Source: Phytophthora sp. 'mugwort' (taxonomy: Eukaryota; Oomycota; Peronosporomycetes; Peronosporales; Peronosporaceae). Taken from it: DNA of 64,000 nt. The stretch spans positions 7,316,001 through 7,380,000 of the forward strand of contig JAUCEF010000007.1 of the NCBI GenBank assembly GCA_033558025.1, given 5' to 3'. This document shows, in pieces, positions 22,380 through 59,476 of the stretch (position 1 is the first letter of the stretch; each line of letters starts with the position of its first letter). The notes under the pieces were generated by a model, which was not told the DNA's origin, made no database searches, and worked only from the letters and a program-made list of their open reading frames with translations. The position numbers and the translations under genes were made by a program.

Positions 22380-23300
22380 AGATCATCATAAAGAAAAACA
22401 CCAGAACAAAGCGACGCCGATGACAGCCAAGACGAAGCAAACCAAGGGCAAGTGGCTCACTCTCGACAGAAATGGCAAGTCGTCCAAGAGTATCGGCGCG
22501 TCTAGCCACCACCATCGCTGTCAAAACTGACTCGTTGGTCCGAGACAGCCTTCAAGCTCTCTCATCCCCCGGCTAGGACCACCATCCTCAACATCTTCAA
22601 GGTGCCGCTACCGTCGGCGCGAACGGAACCTCGCCGCAACCACGAAGGGGGAACCAACGCAAACGTTGCGTTGCCCTGAGCTCGACAAGCAGCTAACTGC
22701 GTTTATCGATTCATGCCTTTCCAGTCATGCATGTCTCTCTCAACGCCTCATAACCTGGAATGCCAAGTGATCATGGCCACCCTTCAATTTCCGCCTTCGC
22801 TCAAACTTTCAGATGGATGGATGTCACGCTTTATGAAGAGACATGATCTCCGCTTCCGTGAGAGGCACAACGAGGCTGGATTGGTGGATCCTGCTTCTGT
22901 TGAAGAAGGTCGTTTAGCGATGCAAGTCATACACGGCACTACTCACCGCGTGGTATCTGGAATATGGACGAAACTGGACTCTTTTATCGCTCAGCAAAAA
23001 GCCGCGATATTTTTATGTCAAAATCGAAGGGGTTAAAAAGGATAAAACCCGCATAATACTAGCCCTGGCTGCAAATGCAAGTGGTTCCGAGAAGCGAGAT
23101 GTATTGAATTGGGAGCGCGTACCGCCCTCATTGCTACAAGGGCAAGACGGCCGAAAAGCTTGGATTTTACTACCGAAACAACCGCAAGTCGTGGATGACC
23201 ATGACTCTGTACAGCGAGTGGATTCGGAACTTTGACAGCGACATGAGGCAAGCATCGAAAAATATCTTGCGTTTGGTCGGTTGCGCGTCCTCTGAGCTGA
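22380..23300 (+). pseudogene. Pogo/Tigger-type transposase relic
   Basis: Broken coding sequence of a pogo-family transposase. In order across shifting frames: an N-terminal helix-turn-helix region (TRWSETAFKL, near 22530), a CENP-B-type DNA-binding region (ELDKQLTAFIDSC at about 22680 and LSDGWMSRFMKRHDL at about 22810), and a DDE catalytic core start (GVKKDKTRIILALAANASGS at about 23030, NNRKSWMTMTLYSEWIRNF at about 23175). Several frameshifts and a stop separate these. The 3' half with the second catalytic Asp is missing. The CENP-B region closely resembles that of the HTH-SDR gene at 58157. Confidence 0.82.
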
Positions 23301-49506: not shown

Positions 49507-50035
49507 AGCAGCCGCGGTATCGGCTTTGCGTTCGCGCAATACTACACCAAGAAAGGCTGGAACATCATCGACACAGATCGCAACGTGGACATCGCCGAGG
49601 AACTCAAGGACATCAAGCCCAGAAAGGTCCTTGAGCTTGATACGGGAGACGAACAGTCGATCCCGGCAGCGGCCAAGGCGGTCGAAGGTGTGGCTGTCGT
49701 TCTTCCATTAATACCAGCGGCATCTCCATCGGCGGTGGCCTGAATGTAACCACGAAGGAGGACATGATGTGCCAATTCGATATCAGCACAATGGGCGTTT
49801 TCTCATGGCGCGCTTGCTGCCCAACCTGCGCCTCGCGGTGCTCTCTCGCAGCCGGGCCTTCGTAGTCTCGCCGATAGCGGCTCAGGCGGCTCGCACTATA
49901 CCGAGCGTCCAAGGCGGCGCTTAGCATGGTCAAGCAAAATCTGGCTGTGGATCTTCAGTCCGAGAAGATAGACCGCCTGCTGCCATACGCGGACTTCACC
50001 AATACGGCCATCGTTAACTACTCGGGCGTCGTCTC
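49507..50035 (+). pseudogene. SDR gene relic, 5' part
   Basis: Short-chain dehydrogenase/reductase remains: GIGFAFAQYYTKKGWNIID (cofactor loop), KVLELDTGDEQSI, then frameshifts near 49700 and 49785, MARLLPNLRLAVL-like, RASKAALSM in a shifted frame at 49902-49928 (keeps the active-site Lys), and AVDL onward to NYSGVVS. The beginning of the gene is missing. The frame is interrupted at 50035 by the Copia element; its end resumes at 56776. It is a paralogue of the SDR half of the gene at 58157. Confidence 0.8.
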
Positions 50036-50566
50036 TGTGAGGCATAAGCATGCTACGCGCTCTGATGTGGTACCTCGTGCTGCTACCGTCTACCGCCTTG
50101 TTTTACGCTGCTGCTCGGCGTCAACAGCTCATCATGAGATGCTGCGCGTCTATGGATTGGTAAGGCCAGCGGCCTTCCATGGTTTAGCGGAGTGCTTGCC
50201 ACTCGTGGCGCCAACAACTGCTATGACTACGAGACGCTGCGCGTAAATGGGTTGGTGAGGCCCGCGACCTTTCATGGTTGGGCGGAGTGCTTGCTGCTCG
50301 TGTGCGAGCTATCTTACTGTGCTTTGTATACATATTTATATGTGCTAATACATTTTTGCTCGGACGACGAAGCCTGGACGGAGAATCAACCAGTTTGTAA
50401 TGTGTTTTGCCTGGCGCAGGGCACTATCGCTGCCCCTCCTGAACGTCCGTGCTTCGTCCGTCCTGCTGCGGTATTTGACCAGCACTCACATGTTGCTTAT
50501 TTTCCTACGTTTACACTCTTACTCCTATATGCGGCTAAGGAGTGCAGACACTGCCGACAGCCCACT
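50036..50566 (+). repeat. 5' LTR of the Copia element
   Basis: Starts TGTGAGGCATAAG directly after the GTCTC duplication. It shares with the right LTR long near-identical stretches (for example from CTGCTGCTCGGCGTCAACAG, and CGGACGAC). The right end is blurred by substitutions next to the primer site; 50566 is approximate. Confidence 0.85.
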
Positions 50567-51281
50567 GGGTATGAGCCCAACAAGGATTGGCCTTTAAGGC
50601 GAAGAACCAAACGCAACTACAGGGGCAGGATGCTGCGCCTCGAGTGAAGGACCATTTGTCTTCACCTCGCCGCCTCAAATCATTGCTCGTTTTCATCTAG
50701 CATTGGACCGAATCGAGCAACAGTGCAGAAGTTCGAGAGGACCCGAACCCGCAAACCGAGGACCCGTTGCAGAGCCATTCTGCAAATAGAGACGACCCAC
50801 CCCCTTCGTCATCCTCAAACGGAGATTCGAGCCCGAGCAGTCACCACATCAGCGCAGAAGTTTGAATACGAGTGAGCAGGGTGACCGAGGTATGACAGGG
50901 CACTACGATGACAATGAGTTGGTGGTCTTCACCAGGAGCTTGCTGAATGTAAAAGAGCACGCTCCCGAAGTTCGCGACCAGGGCTGACTACAAGGGCTGG
51001 CTAGATGAAACCGAGCTGAGTTTTGGAAATCGCATGCTGGATAGTATTACCTTTGGTGGAGAGACGCGGGATGGCAATAAAGCCCTGCGCAGACCCAAGT
51101 ATGCTGACTGGTACACTCAGCGGAAGAAACTAGACTCCTCAGCGATTGTGCTGCCGCTGTCGTCGGACCTGCGGACGATGGTCAGAACGATGAGCTGAAT
51201 GATGAAATCGGGTCACCTTCCTTACTGTTAAAAAGGATTCGTGATCATTTTGATGCTGGCCGAGGTATCAACATAGTCTAT

Positions 51282-51860
51282 TTGAAGCGTGCGCTTCTGA
51301 ACCGCGAGATGCAGCCTGGAGAAACAGTTGACCAGCACACTCATGGCATCGAGAGACTCGTGCGCCGTCTCCGCGAAGAACAACCTAAGCATGACAAGCT
51401 ACCTGAATGGGAACATGCAGACATCCTACTGTCGAATGTGAACCTGGTATTTGAAGAAACTGCGCAGAAGGATATCTGGTGTAGCAAGCATGGCCGTACG
51501 TCGCTGACTGTGCAGGACGCGATGACAACGCTATATGCAGTTGAGCAGTCCAGAAACCAACTATTTCAAGTGAGCGATAAAGGTACTGGGGCAAGTGCAG
51601 CCCATGGACTAGGAGTCAACAATGTAAGCTCGAAGGAGGTGAAAAGAAGAAGTGAAAGAAGTATTTTACCTCAAAAGACCGACGATCTACGCCAGCAAAA
51701 GAACAAGTACAAATGCGCGAACTACAACATGCCCGACCATTGGTGTGCTGAATGTACTGTGACGCGATTACGTCCAGAACTTAGCAGCAAGGGATGGCTA
51801 GAGAACCTGAACGCAAGCGTAGGGGGCTGTCTCAACCAACGGCATAGATTAATCTGGTGA
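51282..51860 (+). pseudogene. Copia gag region
   Basis: 192 codons of a Copia-type gag: ETVDQHTHGIERLVRRLREE, LLSNVNLVFEET, then a degenerate zinc knuckle, KCANYNMPDHWCAEC, in which one Cys is Tyr. Gag coding begins upstream, near 50900, in other frames. Confidence 0.7.
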
Positions 51861-52399
51861 CTACGACATAGACTGAACACGCAACGGTTAACGATGAATC
51901 CAAAAGGACGGTGCAGCTACATCGACGTCAGGCAATGACAACTCAAGTGGACTTGTGGTCTCAGGACAGAATATCACTTGAAGTTATTCGTGAATTTATT
52001 ACACGGTCGCCACAGCAACTACAACAGGATTTACGTGGTGGGTTGGAGTGCAGTGCTGCATCCAATGCTCAACGGCCGACTAAGACCGTCCGAACGGAGT
52101 CGTGCAGTGCGCGCCAAAATGCTGCTTTTCGTCAGATGCGTGGCGATGCACAACGTGGAGGGACATGTAGGCGAAACAAAGTGCTGATACCATCGGAAGT
52201 TGGGTTGTTTACTGTGCCACTGGGCGCTATGGCAATCCATGTGTGCCGACAGGGCAGTCAAGAATCACGTACACAAGTAAACGAACACCGTCCATTTGCT
52301 AATGCTCCGTCAAGCCTGGGTGGCACATCGCGGCAGTGAAGTCCCGTCGTATGATCAACGTAGGCACGATGAAGGACCGCGACCACCACCACCACCACC

Positions 52400-55300
52400 A
52401 AAGAATTGGAACGAAGCACCGACAACAGTCAGTGTGTGCCATGGGAGGGACGCCAAGTTCATGCCGTGAACCGGATCTCATGTATGCATCCGCCTTCTGA
52501 AACTATTGAGTGGAAACTTGATTCTGGTGCACATATTAATGTATGCGGTAAGCTGGACCTGTTTGACAGCCTCCGCGATGGTACCACAAGCCGGCTTGAC
52601 TTTGCAAAGAACGTCAGTACATGCAACTACTTTGGTAATGTGGTTGTGTGTGTGTGATGAACGAGGCTACTGGTAAGGACGAAGGACGGATGCTGGAGGG
52701 CGTGATGTACGCTCCTACCGCTCTGATCAGCATTATTCATTAGCTTGGGCTATAGGCGAATGGCGGCTGGATTCCATTTTCGGTGCTCGCGGGATCATTG
52801 TACAGCCTGGCTGGAGAATCAAGCTCAAGTTTACGATGATCGATGGTATCTATCGTCTCCGTGTGAAACGTGCGAAGGCAGCGATGATGATGGGAGTAAT
52901 GATCCTGCAGTCAGTAGTGACTATGATGAAGTAATGGAGCTGCTTCATCAACGCTTTGGACACATGGGAATACGTACGATTAGGGCGATGGCGTCAAAGC
53001 ATTTGGACGTAAGGTGAATGAAGCCAGTCTGAAACCTTACGACTTTGTTGTGTGCATATCATCCAAGGCCAAGAAGATGGTATATCATCGAGTTGCAAAA
53101 CAAAGTGCAGAACTGTTGGAAACCTTGATGATGGACACTTGAAGTGTCGGAGACAGCATAATCGGCGATCAAACAATGTTCTATCTTATCGTTGATGAAG
53201 CTTCGCGATACAAGTGGACGTGTTTGCTGAAAGAGAAGGGCGATGCAATCGAACATATCATTGCATTGCTGAAGCGCCTAGATCGTGAATTTCGGCAACG
53301 ACCTGTCATACGGTTGCATTCCGATCAGGGACGTGTATTCTTAAGCAACGGATTCAATGGCTATTGCAGTTCGTCCGGAATTACGCTACACCTCATTAAT
53401 GTTTACTGTCCTGCTGAGAAAATGGCATAGCAGAACGTGCTAATGGTGTCGTACTTCCTAGCATTAGTGCTATGCTATTTGCCGAACTTACTGTGGAGTG
53501 GAGCTCTCTTCCATATGGTAGATACACTGAATCAGTTGTCCACCAAGAAGCTAGGAATTACGTCGCCATACGAGAAACGCTTCTCCAAGAAGTCCAAGTG
53601 AAGCGAACTACGCACCTGGGGGCGCTTATGTCAAGTGCGAAATCCCCCTGTATCTCGTCAGCGCAAGGAGAAACTCGAACAGCGAGCACGTTTGTGTTTA
53701 TTGTCGGGCTACAGCATGAACACCAAGGGATATAACTGGTCGGCCTAGCGACCGGCCAAGCGACGACAGCTCGTCGTGAGCATGTGTTTTCACGAGAGCT
53801 ACACTGCTGATGGAGACTATGTCCGAAAACGCTTGGAAACATGTTCTCGGCAATGGCACATGAGTTATCCACTGCTGTGTTTAGTTAATCGCATTTTTAG
53901 CGGACATGAAGTCATACTCGCTTATCGAGCTGCGACCAACTCACGACAAATCAAAGGTGCTGAAGTTACAAAGACTTGCTCAAGCTGCGAACATACCTTC
54001 AATTACTTCGAAACTAGTTCGTCCTCCTGCTGTGATAAATACTCTTCCTCTTCCCATGAGCCCAACAAGACAGGGAAGCGTCAGAAGAAGAAGAAGCGGG
54101 ATGATGATGCAGACTACGTTGATTCTGGGGTGATGATACCATCTGGTATCTCAAGTAATAAGCGACCTCGAATGATTACCAAGAGAAGCGTGCAACTTCG
54201 TGACTATGTCGTGAGTAACGTATATCATGACATGTAAGATGGGGTCGTGCCAACCACATTCAAGTAAGCCAAAGTATGTAATCCGTGGGCTCAATCGGCG
54301 GCTGCTATGCGAGAAGAATTGCATTTTCTTAGCGAACTTGCGGCTAGTGCGTCGCACTGAAGTCAAAGACCACAAGATCATCACGTGCAGATGGGTAATC
54401 GCGCTAAAACGAGATGCGGTGGACGCATCAAGGGGCTCGTCTGGCCATACATGGATTCATAAAACAACAGCTTGGGATTAACGACTCCGAGGCATATGCA
54501 CCTGTTGTTCGATTCGAGTCAATTCGGTTGCTGCTATCTACTGTGCTGTGAAGCATAGTTGGGCAGTGCTACCGTATTATGTAAAGACGGCATTTCTATA
54601 TAAGAGATCTTGAAGAGGTGATCTGTCTGGGGCAGGCTCCTGGTTTATAAATGGATGGACCTGGGCTAGAGCGCCGCTTGTTGAAGAGCCTATATGGTTT
54701 GAAGCAGGCTCCAACATTTGGAACAAGACTTTACATGCAACGTCGATGACTCAGGACTTCGTTCGCCTGGGTTCAGACTATAGATTATATGATCTCATCG
54801 AGAATGATGACGTCAAACTACTATTGGTGATGTACGTTGACGACCTACTGCTAATGGGCCCTCCAAGCCGGTGTGCAACGGTGGCTGCTTCGCTTAAAAG
54901 ACGTTCGAGCTAATCACACTTCGAGATGTAAAATTCTTACTCGCGGTGGAGATTTTTGATTGATCGTCCACAGCTCCAGCTTGCGTATGGATAGCATCAG
55001 TACATTTTGGAGGTTCTGAAACGTTTTCACATGGAAATTGCAATGGCTGTGCAACTCCGGAAGCAACAACTTCATCAACTGTGCCTGTGCAACCAACAAA
55101 GGAATATTTCTGTATCGTGAACTGGTGGGTGCTTTGCAATGTCTCATGAATACTTCGCGATCGACATTGTCCACTCAACGCGCAGCTTAGGCAAGCATCT
55201 TGCTGGATATGATCATATACATACAAATTCTTTGTCGACTGCAAGTACCTGGGCACGCTTTGCCTTTTGCGGAGGCAAAGCGTGCCCAGGTACTTGCAGT

Positions 55301-55560
55301 CGACAAAGAATTGCAGACTAGCGATGAATGCCGTGGACAAACAAGGTGGTGAGATCACAACTTACTCGGATGCAGACTACGCAAATGACCCGGTCGATCG
55401 TCGAAGCATCAGGTTACATGACGCTGCTTGATGGCAACATCATCTCTTGCTTCGCGCAAGCAAGTGATTAATGCGCAAAGTACCACTGAAGCGGAGTATA
55501 TTGCGATGGTAGAAGCTATAAAAGACATGATGTGGCCCACAGGACTGCGTTACAAGCTTC
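52400..55560 (+). pseudogene. Copia pol region (PR, IN, RT, RNase H)
   Basis: Protease active site KLDSGAHINVCG at about 52515; pre-integrase ELLHQRFGHMGIRT at about 52940; integrase core YLIVDEASRYKWTCLLK and RLHSDQGRVFLSNGF over 53176-53430; reverse transcriptase with the catalytic YVDD at 54833-54844; RNase H TYSDADYANDPVDRRS at about 55355 and SRKQVINAQSTTEAEYIAMV at about 55455. At least six frame changes or stops separate these blocks. Confidence 0.85.
55226..55312. repeat. 40-bp perfect palindrome inside Copia pol
   Basis: Bases 55226-55265 are the exact reverse complement of 55273-55312, with a 7-base loop (TTTGCGG). The right arm reads in frame as the normal Copia sequence RYLQSTKNCRLA, so the left arm is the copied, inverted one. 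The DNA or RNA could form a long hairpin. Confidence 0.93.
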
Positions 55561-56234
55561 GCTGGAAACACGACATGCCGTGCTGTGCGGAGATAACCAA
55601 GCGAGCATCTATCTGTCTGCCAAACTGGCAAGCATAGCAAGACGAAACACATCGACAATAAGTACCACATGGTTCAACGCAACGTTGAGCTTGGCAAGCT
55701 GAAGACGACACATGTAGATACTGAAAACACGATGCCGGATATAATGACGGAATGACGGAATGACTTAGTACTGTCAAGTTTGCGCGCTTTCGTACTGCCA
55801 TGAAGGTGCTTCCAATTGTCGATGCTGCAATATCACCTGCTGTTGATGATCAACAGATGAATGCAATGGTGACATGTTCACTGCGTTGGAACTCTTCCAA
55901 GAGCAAGTGAGAGAAGTGCTACGTATGAGCGAGTGTACGATCTGCAGCTTACCTGGTTGCAATGCTGTTACCAGTTGGCGAAGGGGTCGACCCTCCCCAC
56001 GCGGTGCCACTACTCGGCACCGGAGGCGTCTCAGCCGCTGCAACTTCGTGCACCGGTTCACACCCCCAGCGTTCATTGCACGACAAGCCGCGACGCGGGC
56101 CGAAGCCTCTGTCGCCCAAGCCGAGCCCCGTTTCGCTGCTTCAACGTCGCGTCGTTTCGCAACGACAGCGACCAACTTCGTCCCCCCGGGCCGTCCCATG
56201 GACGGCTCTGATATCAGTTCCGATCAAGTGGGAG

Positions 56235-56775
56235 TGTGATACCCAAGGATGCTACGAGTGCTGATGTGGTATCAGGGTCCGTACCTCGGCTGCTACCGTT
56301 TACCGCCTTGCTTCACGCTGCTGCTCGGCGTCAACAGCTCATCATGAGATGCTGCGTGTCTATGGATTGGTAAGGCCAGCGGCCTTCCATGGTTTAGCGG
56401 AGTGCTTGCCACTCGTGGCGCCAACAACTGCTATGACTACGAGACGCTGCGCGTAAATGGATTGATGAGGCCCGCGACCTTCCATGGTTGGGCGGAGTGC
56501 TTGCTGCTCGTGTGCGAGCTATCTTACTGTGCTTTGTATACATATTTATATGTGCTAATACATTTTTGCTCGGACGACAAAGCCCGGACCGAGGATCAAC
56601 CAGTTTGTAATGTGTTTTGCCTGGCCAGTGCACTACCGCTGCTCCTCCTGAACGTCCGTGCTTCGTCTGTCCTGCTGCGGCATTTGACCAGCACTCACGT
56701 GTTGCTTATTTTCCTGCGTCTACACTCTTACTCCTACATGCGGCTAAGGAGCGCAGACACTGCCACCATTCCACA
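56235..56775 (+). repeat. 3' LTR of the Copia element
   Basis: 541 bp from TGTGATACCC after the purine tract to CATTCCACA before the GTCTC duplication. It carries about 11 extra bases near 56265 relative to the left LTR and scattered substitutions, so the insertion is not very recent. Confidence 0.85.
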
Positions 56776-56883
56776 GTCTCACCAGAAAAGGTGACCGGCA
56801 TGGTGCGCATCATCGAACGCGCCAAGATTGGCAACAAGCTCCAGATGTTCCACTTCGAGAAGAGCGACGCGCTGCCGTGGTAA
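56776..56883 (+). pseudogene. SDR gene relic, 3' part
   Basis: Continues the SDR relic after the Copia element: SPEKVTGMVRIIERAKIGNK, then LQMFHFEKSDALPW and TAA. It aligns with the C-terminus of the gene at 58157 (RPEESVAGMAQVIARTRLGE, then LQLRHFGNGDPIGW). Confidence 0.82.
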
Positions 56884-57629: not shown

Positions 57630-58156
57630 TATCGCAGTACAGTACTATATCTAAAGAGTATACTACGTAGTACATTATTCTGCCTCAATAGATGTCACAA
57701 CAATTTATAACTATATCTGCATAGTATCGTTTTGTGATTTGTTGAGTTTGCTCTAGACGTATTATTGTATCCACTAAATTATCTTCAAGTCTTTATGCAG
57801 TGCACGATTTCTTGATTAAGGCAGAAAACTGTATATGTAGAGCACAAATGTACGTAGTACAGTTGTGCACCTCGTATTCAACAAGTTGGATCTTATCAAG
57901 TGAGCTCGTGAAGGAAGCTCAGACAAGTGAGCTCGTGAAGGAAGCTCAGACAGTTGAAGATTCATCATTGGTTTTTGCAGGTTATTGATTGGTGCCAGTG
58001 CCGAAAATGATGTGCACAACTGTAGTATGTAAATATAAAAAACATGCAGACTTCAGCTTAATGTGCTTGCAACATTCGTCCAACATCGGGTTTCTTCCTA
58101 TGAAACTGCGCTTTCATTTTCGCGCGCAACGGGTGTGTACCGTACCCCCCATCAAA
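57630..58156 (+). promoter_or_regulatory. Upstream region of the HTH-SDR gene
   Basis: AT-rich, about 530 bp, between the MITE and the gene, and therefore the only promoter space. The open frame of the gene extends upstream to 57989 with an in-frame ATG at 58007, so a longer protein is possible. No exact initiator motif was recognised near the ATG. Confidence 0.4.
57898..57951 (+). repeat. Two perfect 27-bp tandem copies
   Basis: The unit AAGTGAGCTCGTGAAGGAAG plus CTCAGAC is repeated exactly twice (57898-57924, 57925-57951) in the upstream region of the HTH-SDR gene. Confidence 0.9.
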
Positions 58157-59476
58157 ATGGTGCAATGGATGACCGTGGCGCAGAAGTTCGAGCTCATTCA
58201 GAAGCACCGACAGAACCCGTCGCTGTCCACGCGTAAGCTGGCACTGTGGGCGCATGAGGCCTTCAACCTGCCCACGGGCCCCACGGCCGCGACCGTCTCG
58301 CGCGTGCTGAAATCAGCCGAGGATATCGAGGACAAGCAGCGCCACGGCATCACGCGTAAGGGCCACGGCGTGTCGTGCCCCGAGCTGGATGTGGCGCTCA
58401 AGAGCTACGTGGACAGCTGCGCGCAGAACCAGATGCAGCTCACGCGCAGATTGTTGGTAGACAAGGCACGCGAAATCCTGGACACGATCCCCAACGCGCC
58501 AACGCTCAACCTGTCGGATGGATGGCTTACGAGCTTCATGCGCCGTCATGGGATGGGGCTACGACCGCGCTCTCTGCAGACGGACGGGGAGGGCGGTGAC
58601 GCCGAGATCCACATGGAGCCCATGCTGGCTGCAAGGGTCCAAGTGGCCGCGTCGTCCTCCCGTCCAGCAGTACGCCGAGCGACATCCAATAACAACCAGA
58701 GACGGGCTCGTCCCATGCAGTTGGGACTCGTGACGACCCCAACGCAAGCGGTTCAAGCGCCGATGTTCGTATATACGGGACCCAAGAGGACGGTGCTGAT
58801 CACAGGGGCTGACAATAGCGCGGGAATGGCGTTCGTGCAGCACTACATGAGGGAAGGATGGAACGTTATCGCTGCGTGTCCAGAAGGCGATATATGCATC
58901 AAGGTGACGCAGCTGGCTCCCTGGAAGGTGGTGTCAATGGACACAGGCAGCAAGGCGTCCGTCGATGCTGCTGCTGAAAAGCTGAAGGACGTGCCGATTG
59001 ACCTATTGATCAACAATGCGAGGCTCTTTACCAAGGGATACATGCACTCAACGACTGCGGAGGACTGCGTTCACCAGTACGAGGTGAACGCCTTGGGGCC
59101 TTTCATCGTGTCACGTGCGTTGCTGCAGAATTTGCGTCTTGGAGTCCGCGATCGCGGCATGGCGTTCGTGGCTAACATTTCGTCGCGTGTGGGCAGCATT
59201 TCGGAAAACATGGGCGGAGGCTCGTACGGCTTCCGGGCGTCCATGAGCGCGCTGCACATGTTCACCAAGACTTTAGTCGCGGATTTCTTGCCACACAAGA
59301 TTGGATGCGTGCTGTTGCACTCGGGGATTGACGACAAGCCAGAAGGAGTGCCCTCTGCAGCTGATGTTCGCCCTGAAGAGAGCGTGGCCGGCATGGCGCA
59401 AGTCATCGCGCGCACGAGATTGGGAGAACCACTTCAACTTCGCCATTTTGGAAATGGTGATCCCATTGGGTGGTAG
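58157..59476 (+). CDS. CENP-B/pogo-type HTH domain fused to a short-chain dehydrogenase-like domain
   Basis: 439 aa in one uninterrupted frame. Residues 1 to about 140 are a transposase-type DNA-binding region: MTVAQKFELIQKHRQNPSLS and LALWAHEAF (first helix-turn-helix), CPELDVALKSYVDSC, then LSDGWLTSFMRRHGM (118-132, CENP-B type). A linker of about 70 residues follows. From about 210 an SDR fold: VLITGADNSAGMAF (degenerate TGxxxGxG), DLLINNAR at about 284, VANISSRVGSI (Ser kept), SYGFRASMSALHMFTK, LLHSGIDDKPEG, and a normal SDR end. In the SDR signature YxxxK the Tyr is Phe359 and the Lys is Met363, so enzyme activity is unlikely; NAD(P) binding may persist. I chose the Met at 58157 because homologous domains begin MVxWMTVAQK; an upstream in-frame ATG exists at 58007. 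Function unknown; a DNA-binding regulator is the simplest inference. Confidence 0.88.
   Translation: MVQWMTVAQKFELIQKHRQNPSLSTRKLALWAHEAFNLPTGPTAATVSRVLKSAEDIEDKQRHGITRKGHGVSCPELDVALKSYVDSCAQNQMQLTRRLLVDKAREILDTIPNAPTLNLSDGWLTSFMRRHGMGLRPRSLQTDGEGGDAEIHMEPMLAARVQVAASSSRPAVRRATSNNNQRRARPMQLGLVTTPTQAVQAPMFVYTGPKRTVLITGADNSAGMAFVQHYMREGWNVIAACPEGDICIKVTQLAPWKVVSMDTGSKASVDAAAEKLKDVPIDLLINNARLFTKGYMHSTTAEDCVHQYEVNALGPFIVSRALLQNLRLGVRDRGMAFVANISSRVGSISENMGGGSYGFRASMSALHMFTKTLVADFLPHKIGCVLLHSGIDDKPEGVPSAADVRPEESVAGMAQVIARTRLGEPLQLRHFGNGDPIGW

Follow-up and report, generated by a model that had tools for sequence, protein, structure and literature searches.

The window analysed here, a 64,000-nucleotide stretch of the genome of Phytophthora sp. 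'mugwort', contains a gene in which a CENP-B/pogo-type DNA-binding head precedes a complete SDR fold, and we have confirmed that this fusion is one real conserved gene and not a chance frame, since records from Phytophthora, Peronospora and Plasmopara share it. We think it probable, as judged from sequence and predicted structure, that this is a fusion domesticated in the Peronosporales and that it encodes a DNA-binding regulator with a catalytically dead SDR core. The presence of a pogo/CENP-B head and a complete SDR fold in one open frame had been proposed in a preliminary description of this DNA and is borne out both by Pfam and by the predicted structure; the interpretation put forward there is, as a whole, partly supported.

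The explanation that two adjacent genes have been misread as one is ruled out, because no intron interrupts the open frame and the relatives are annotated as single proteins. The preliminary description had treated the fusion as one open frame and suggested looking for the same domain pair in other oomycetes, where we find it in the three genera named above, such that sister species do carry the fusion; the linker is kept in frame in these relatives, with the exception that the P. infestans model P0007 is missing about 25 linker residues, still without a change of frame. GC content by codon position in the head and in the SDR part resembles that of two neighbouring genes and is unlike that of the non-coding upstream stretch, and this signal is less clear in the linker. 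Identity figures were computed on rows picked as near full length, 13 of them from the window clade and 11 from the paralogue clade described below. Among the 13 window-clade sequences 221 of 439 positions are identical; their mean pairwise identity reaches 87.6% for the head and 79.7% for the SDR part, against 57.7% for the linker (residues 139–207), as would be expected of two domains under constraint joined by a stretch that varies more freely. By composition the linker contains arginine-rich patches, possibly a putative nuclear signal. We also note an initiator-like TCATTTT upstream of the gene, a motif for which base composition predicts 0.7 matches by chance in the 2 kb scanned; in the portion of PMC3599244 available, the inferred start sites of high-confidence P. 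infestans genes lie at a median of 50 nt 5′ of the ATG.

Table 1. Features in and around the fused gene (window positions).
Feature	Position	Strand	Evidence
Decayed SDR-only gene, first part	49507..50035	+	tblastn; in-frame stops, frame shifts
Probable LTR retroelement, 6.7 kb, between the two pieces of that gene	50036..56775	+	TG...CA outer ends; GTCTC on both sides
Same decayed SDR-only gene, last part	56776..56883	+	tblastn, sequence
Initiator-like TCATTTT, weak	58114..58120	+	43 nt 5′ of the ATG
Fused gene, whole	58157..59476	+	intronless frame, 439 codons plus stop; full-length relatives; alignment A1
CENP-B/pogo-type DNA-binding head, residues 1–135	58157..58561	+	Pfam, AlphaFold, 1hlv match
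Disordered linker, residues 136–207	58562..58777	+	pLDDT under 50, composition
SDR fold, residues 208–439	58778..59473	+	Pfam, PDB matches
Altered dinucleotide-binding loop TGADNSAG, residues 216–223	58802..58825	+	relatives have TGxxxGxG
Altered active site FRASM, residues 359–363	59231..59245	+	relatives have YxxxK; alignment with 3wxb and 5tqv

A protein search recovers the fusion at full length and with 73–88% identity in Phytophthora, Peronospora and Plasmopara records; the fused relatives include P. nicotianae, P. pseudosyringae, P. idaei, P. citrophthora, P. lilii, P. infestans, P. fragariae, P. cinnamomi, P. ramorum and P. cactorum, and, beyond Phytophthora, Peronospora effusa, Peronospora belbahrii and Plasmopara. 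Alignment A1 has 27 members, 26 of them matching PF03221 and likewise 26 matching PF00106. A second fused clade, also present in Nothophytophthora, came up when the window protein and a Nothophytophthora protein were used as queries; its members are about 40–48% identical to the window protein in near-full-length pairs. The own-genome member of this paralogue clade is at G000:C7 7994635-7996023 and has an apparent intron in its SDR part, at the same place as a break in the own-genome SDR-only genes; the window gene is without this break. Our genome contains both fused clades, as do the named records from P. infestans, P. nicotianae, P. ramorum, P. cactorum, P. lilii and Peronospora belbahrii.

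The head has two helix-turn-helix units, the first formed by helices in residues 7–62 and the second, corresponding to PF03221, by residues 75–135 (Pfam and AlphaFold), and PF03221 scores 41.8 bits against a curated cut-off of 22.2. The predicted structure has the two-HTH fold of CENP-B. Comparison of the whole model covered the SDR part only and a separate head model was therefore used, for which the closest fold match is CENP-B on DNA (1hlv), with modest fold scores; comparison of the head sequence with the PDB gave no meaningful match, so that a fold search was needed instead. The best 60 of 577 rows of a search of the PDB with the A3 profile match the SDR side, a result that is uninformative for the head because full-length rows dominate that profile.

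Pfam detects no DDE domain (PF03184, E values up to 1) in the fused protein itself. Leaving the two fusions aside, we considered the 15 loci of our genome with the best matches to the head: at least 11 of them are closely followed, on the same strand, by a DDE_1 match, and a pogo-type transposase is thus the most likely origin of the head. Among the matches listed, protein searches with the head region gave members of both fused clades and, apart from these, a single distant transposase (P0089). No row from these searches, which need shared exact words, is named Pythium, Albugo or Saprolegniales, five rows (P0013, P0017, P0078, P0080 and P0089) being without a species label. The likeness of the head to CENP-B/pogo-type domains (PF03221; 1hlv) and to pogo-derived regulators lies in this bipartite HTH; the protein differs from pogo-type transposases in having an SDR core in place of the DDE domain. 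The CENPB-type transcription factors of P. infestans have the same HTH class as the fused head, and section 21 of PMC11267843, the part of that paper available, describes them as binding the palindromes GTTTAAC and GTTAAC on arrays, with motifs for five of seven, and names no SDR partner for them. In the window GTTAAC occurs nine times (10.5 expected) and GTTTAAC three times (5.3 expected), with none near the fused gene; auto-regulation through such sites is therefore unsupported.

The SDR part contains a Rossmann/SDR fold according to Pfam, AlphaFold and PDB matches, is 30% identical to 3wxb over the aligned stretch, and superposes on NADPH-bound structures. The tyrosine and the lysine of the YxxxK pair are central to SDR chemistry. 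We examined the active-site positions in 89 aligned proteins, with counts given for the rows that have letters at each column; the window clade comprises P0001–P0019, in which rows from the same species are not independent, and the gene models P0016 and P0018 have no HTH annotated. The YxxxK pair is absent from the fused protein, both residues being missing in all 18 clade rows: the tyrosine is a phenylalanine in 18/18 (F359 in the window protein), and the lysine is a methionine in 15, a leucine in two and an isoleucine in one (M363). The TGxxxGxG cofactor loop is not intact either, as its second glycine is replaced in 19/19 rows; the arginine after strand 2 (the NADP arginine) is a proline in 18 of 19 and a serine in the other, and NNAG has become NNAR (or HNAR) in 18/18. 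The catalytic asparagine and serine (N311 and S343) are kept in 18/18. On the basis of these residues the window-clade SDR is a predicted pseudo-enzyme.

In the paralogue clade the catalytic tyrosine is replaced by histidine in 13 of 18 rows and by glutamine in three (all P. ramorum), and is present in two (both Nothophytophthora); the lysine and the strand-2 arginine are each kept in 18/18 and the second loop glycine in 19/19. Among the SDR-only proteins P0030–P0077 the tyrosine is kept in 47/48 and the lysine in 46/48, and own-genome SDR-only exons have both in 8/8; the own-genome fused paralogue, L009, has the histidine. Loss of the catalytic tyrosine accompanies the fusion and is nearly absent among the unfused cousins sampled; a hand count from the alignment letters gives three changes in the tyrosine column. 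The adh_short score is 121 bits in an SDR-only protein (P0030), 105 in a paralogue (P0022) and 66 in the window protein.

A tree was built from 46 chosen SDR rows, without L016. All 26 rows that belong to the two fused clades (among them P0029, a model lacking most of the head) group together with support 100/99; the next branch is an own-genome SDR-only gene, L010 (100/97), and all of these lie inside the wider SDR-only oomycete genes. The simplest reading of this placement is that a single fusion, followed by duplication, gave rise to both clades. The head tree groups the two fused clades with an HTH-only frame (L011) and four pogo-type loci (97/90), with the branching inside this group unresolved, and a constraint uniting the two fused clades is not rejected (AU p 0.28; L033, which had no match, was dropped from this tree, and the AU test took 12 loci in addition to the proteins). 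On the best tree each fused clade has lost the tyrosine independently, with Nothophytophthora lying inside the paralogue clade (93/75); an alternative with Nothophytophthora outside both fused clades is not rejected (AU p 0.18), and tyrosine loss accompanies the fusion under both placements.

In the explanation that we favor, an SDR gene would have acquired at its front end the DNA-binding head of a transposase of the pogo type, most simply in a single event; the fused gene would then have duplicated, and the SDR would have lost its catalytic tyrosine in both copies while its fold was conserved. The resulting protein would be a sequence-specific DNA-binding regulator in which the head locates short sites, the flexible linker ties the head to the core, and the former enzyme supplies oligomerization together with a surface or pocket through which a ligand or a partner protein switches the regulator; we infer DNA binding, oligomerization, nuclear location and a regulatory role for it on this basis. 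SDRs are usually dimers or tetramers, and the fused protein may likewise form a dimer or tetramer through its SDR core, a proposal that fits the palindromic sites of the P. infestans CENPB-type proteins. The cofactor loop of the window clade being degraded too, its core is probably a structural or partner-docking platform or binds an altered ligand, while the paralogue clade, with its NADP motifs, could read NADP(H); it is a fair guess from these motifs that the paralogue senses NADP(H) without turnover. More tentatively, the two proteins may constitute a lineage-specific pair of transcription factors that arose when a transposase captured a dehydrogenase once; one of them would read NADP(H) with its cofactor site intact and its catalytic residue broken, and the other would be cofactor-blind and constitutive or partner-gated, perhaps sharing binding sites with the first and competing or forming mixed oligomers with it, and the Nothophytophthora fusion, whose catalytic residues are intact, would then be a living intermediate between enzyme and sensor; we offer this as a speculative extension.

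An alternative to partner docking is that the window protein is itself a redox or metabolite sensor, with its own SDR binding NAD(P)(H) and cofactor occupancy controlling DNA binding. Some observations would suit such a sensor, including the complete fold and its superposition on NADPH-bound structures, the retention of TGxxxGxG, arginine and lysine in the paralogue clade, a Tyr-to-Phe SDR mutant that crystallizes with NADPH (according to the title of 7xwj), and the regulatory function of NmrA despite a diverged loop motif (in the portion of PMC3314646 available). However, the second TGxxxGxG glycine, the strand-2 arginine, the lysine and the NNAG glycine have all been replaced in the window clade, and the adh_short score falls stepwise from the SDR-only protein to the window protein. 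We therefore find this alternative rather unlikely; with the cofactor site degraded, docking of a partner or an altered ligand seems likelier than plain NADP(H) sensing, which is doubtful for the window protein. The terms NAD(P)-binding and redox-responsive, as used in the preliminary description, do not hold for this protein as worded, since the tyrosine, lysine, glycine and arginine are gone and cofactor binding cannot be assumed; they would better suit the paralogue clade, in which the cofactor motifs are kept.

It is much less probable that the protein is an active enzyme with altered chemistry for which the HTH serves as a chromatin tether, a view to which the conserved asparagine and serine of the window clade and the full Tyr-Lys pair of the two Nothophytophthora rows lend something, but which has to contend with the absence of both tyrosine and lysine from every window-clade row scored and of tyrosine from 16 of 18 paralogue rows. 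Equally improbable is a decaying gene, or a transposon with a captured SDR, that has no host role: a probable LTR element does lie nearby in a broken SDR gene and a broken pogo head is present at 22467-22895, but orthologues of the same order and similar length occur across genera with the positional identity given above, one full-length window-clade copy (thus at least one) is found in our genome among the matches listed, and transposon cargo is held unlikely given this conservation and the missing DDE domain.

Domesticated transposase DNA-binding domains are well known, as in host-transposase fusions with KRAB, and the fused protein resembles these in that a transposase-derived DNA-binding domain is joined to another domain; the difference is that the partner is a metabolic-enzyme fold, here apparently turned pseudo-enzyme. 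A further fusion of this kind joins BTB/POZ with CENPB (in the excerpt of PMC10027918 available). With the carbonyl-reductase-like SDRs (3wxb, Sniffer 1sny and 5tqv) the window protein has the fold and the catalytic asparagine and serine in common, and it differs from them in the loss of the tyrosine, lysine, loop glycine and NADP arginine, and in its HTH head; related SDRs are labelled 'C-factor' in some records. NmrA, Gal80 and CtBP bind transcription factors or act as co-repressors. They are Rossmann-fold proteins acting on transcription, and NmrA has a diverged loop motif (both from the available part of PMC3314646); the fused protein is like them in the use of a nucleotide-type Rossmann fold on transcription, and differs in having a DNA-binding domain of its own. 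The analogy with NmrA and CtBP drawn in the preliminary description is thus apt in kind, but the protein is not a member of the NmrA family: PF05368 has no match in it at E values up to 1, and in the paralogue P0022 scores 19.0 bits, below the cut-off of 27.

The system had also been put forward as undescribed. Among the papers listed by a literature search, no title or opening of an abstract describes an HTH-SDR pairing or the domestication of pogo heads in oomycetes. The names of both domains do already appear in public protein records, one of which, from Plasmopara, spells out the two. The pair may be listed in Seidl 2011, which reportedly deals with domain pairs in oomycetes. The main text of Morris 2009 on oomycete fusions (PMC2705460), the part available, has no mention of DNA-binding, transposase, helix-turn-helix, CENP or SDR. 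Little is known about transcription factor binding in oomycetes, according to the available part of PMC11267843, and the two fused clades add two conserved candidate regulators. Catalytic residues have been lost in both daughter clades and are kept by nearly all unfused cousins, so that the turning of an enzyme into a likely regulator, once it had gained a DNA-binding head, is seen here with unusual clarity. The proteins form a graded series, from SDR-only through the Nothophytophthora fusion with a full site and the paralogue with the cofactor site only to the window clade with neither, and the step from enzyme to regulator is thus testable with natural proteins.

Upstream of the fused gene is a decayed SDR-only gene that is split by a probable LTR retroelement (Table 1). 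The inner copies of the repeats of this element are 95% identical over 486 columns, and the outermost repeat bases do not align; an RNase H-like frame at 55428-55637 was recognized by eye, and the element is probably copia-like. A P. cactorum model (P0012) opens with the C-terminal portion of such an SDR, insert-free at that place, and continues into the fused protein. Insertion of the head into a tandem SDR pair, as may have occurred here, would leave the fused gene next to an SDR-only gene.

Several other loci in the genome are related to one or other half of the fusion. The pogo-type HTH copy at 22467-22895 in the window has in-frame stops and is about 31% identical to the fused head. An HTH-only frame of 220 codons (L011:1372-2034; G000:C17:389105) has a head 47% identical to that of the fused gene, a charged tail and, by Pfam, no DDE domain, and is a candidate domesticated head. 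Our genome has at least 150 HTH_Tnp_Tc5 and at least 153 DDE_1 matches, with many of the HTH matches in frames of 100–290 amino acids. An array of SDR-only genes is present at G000:C4:3466297-3560506; three of the genes (L018) are tandem copies with equal scores, spaced by about 1.9 kb, and the exons of this array that were placed in the tree have YxxxK kept.
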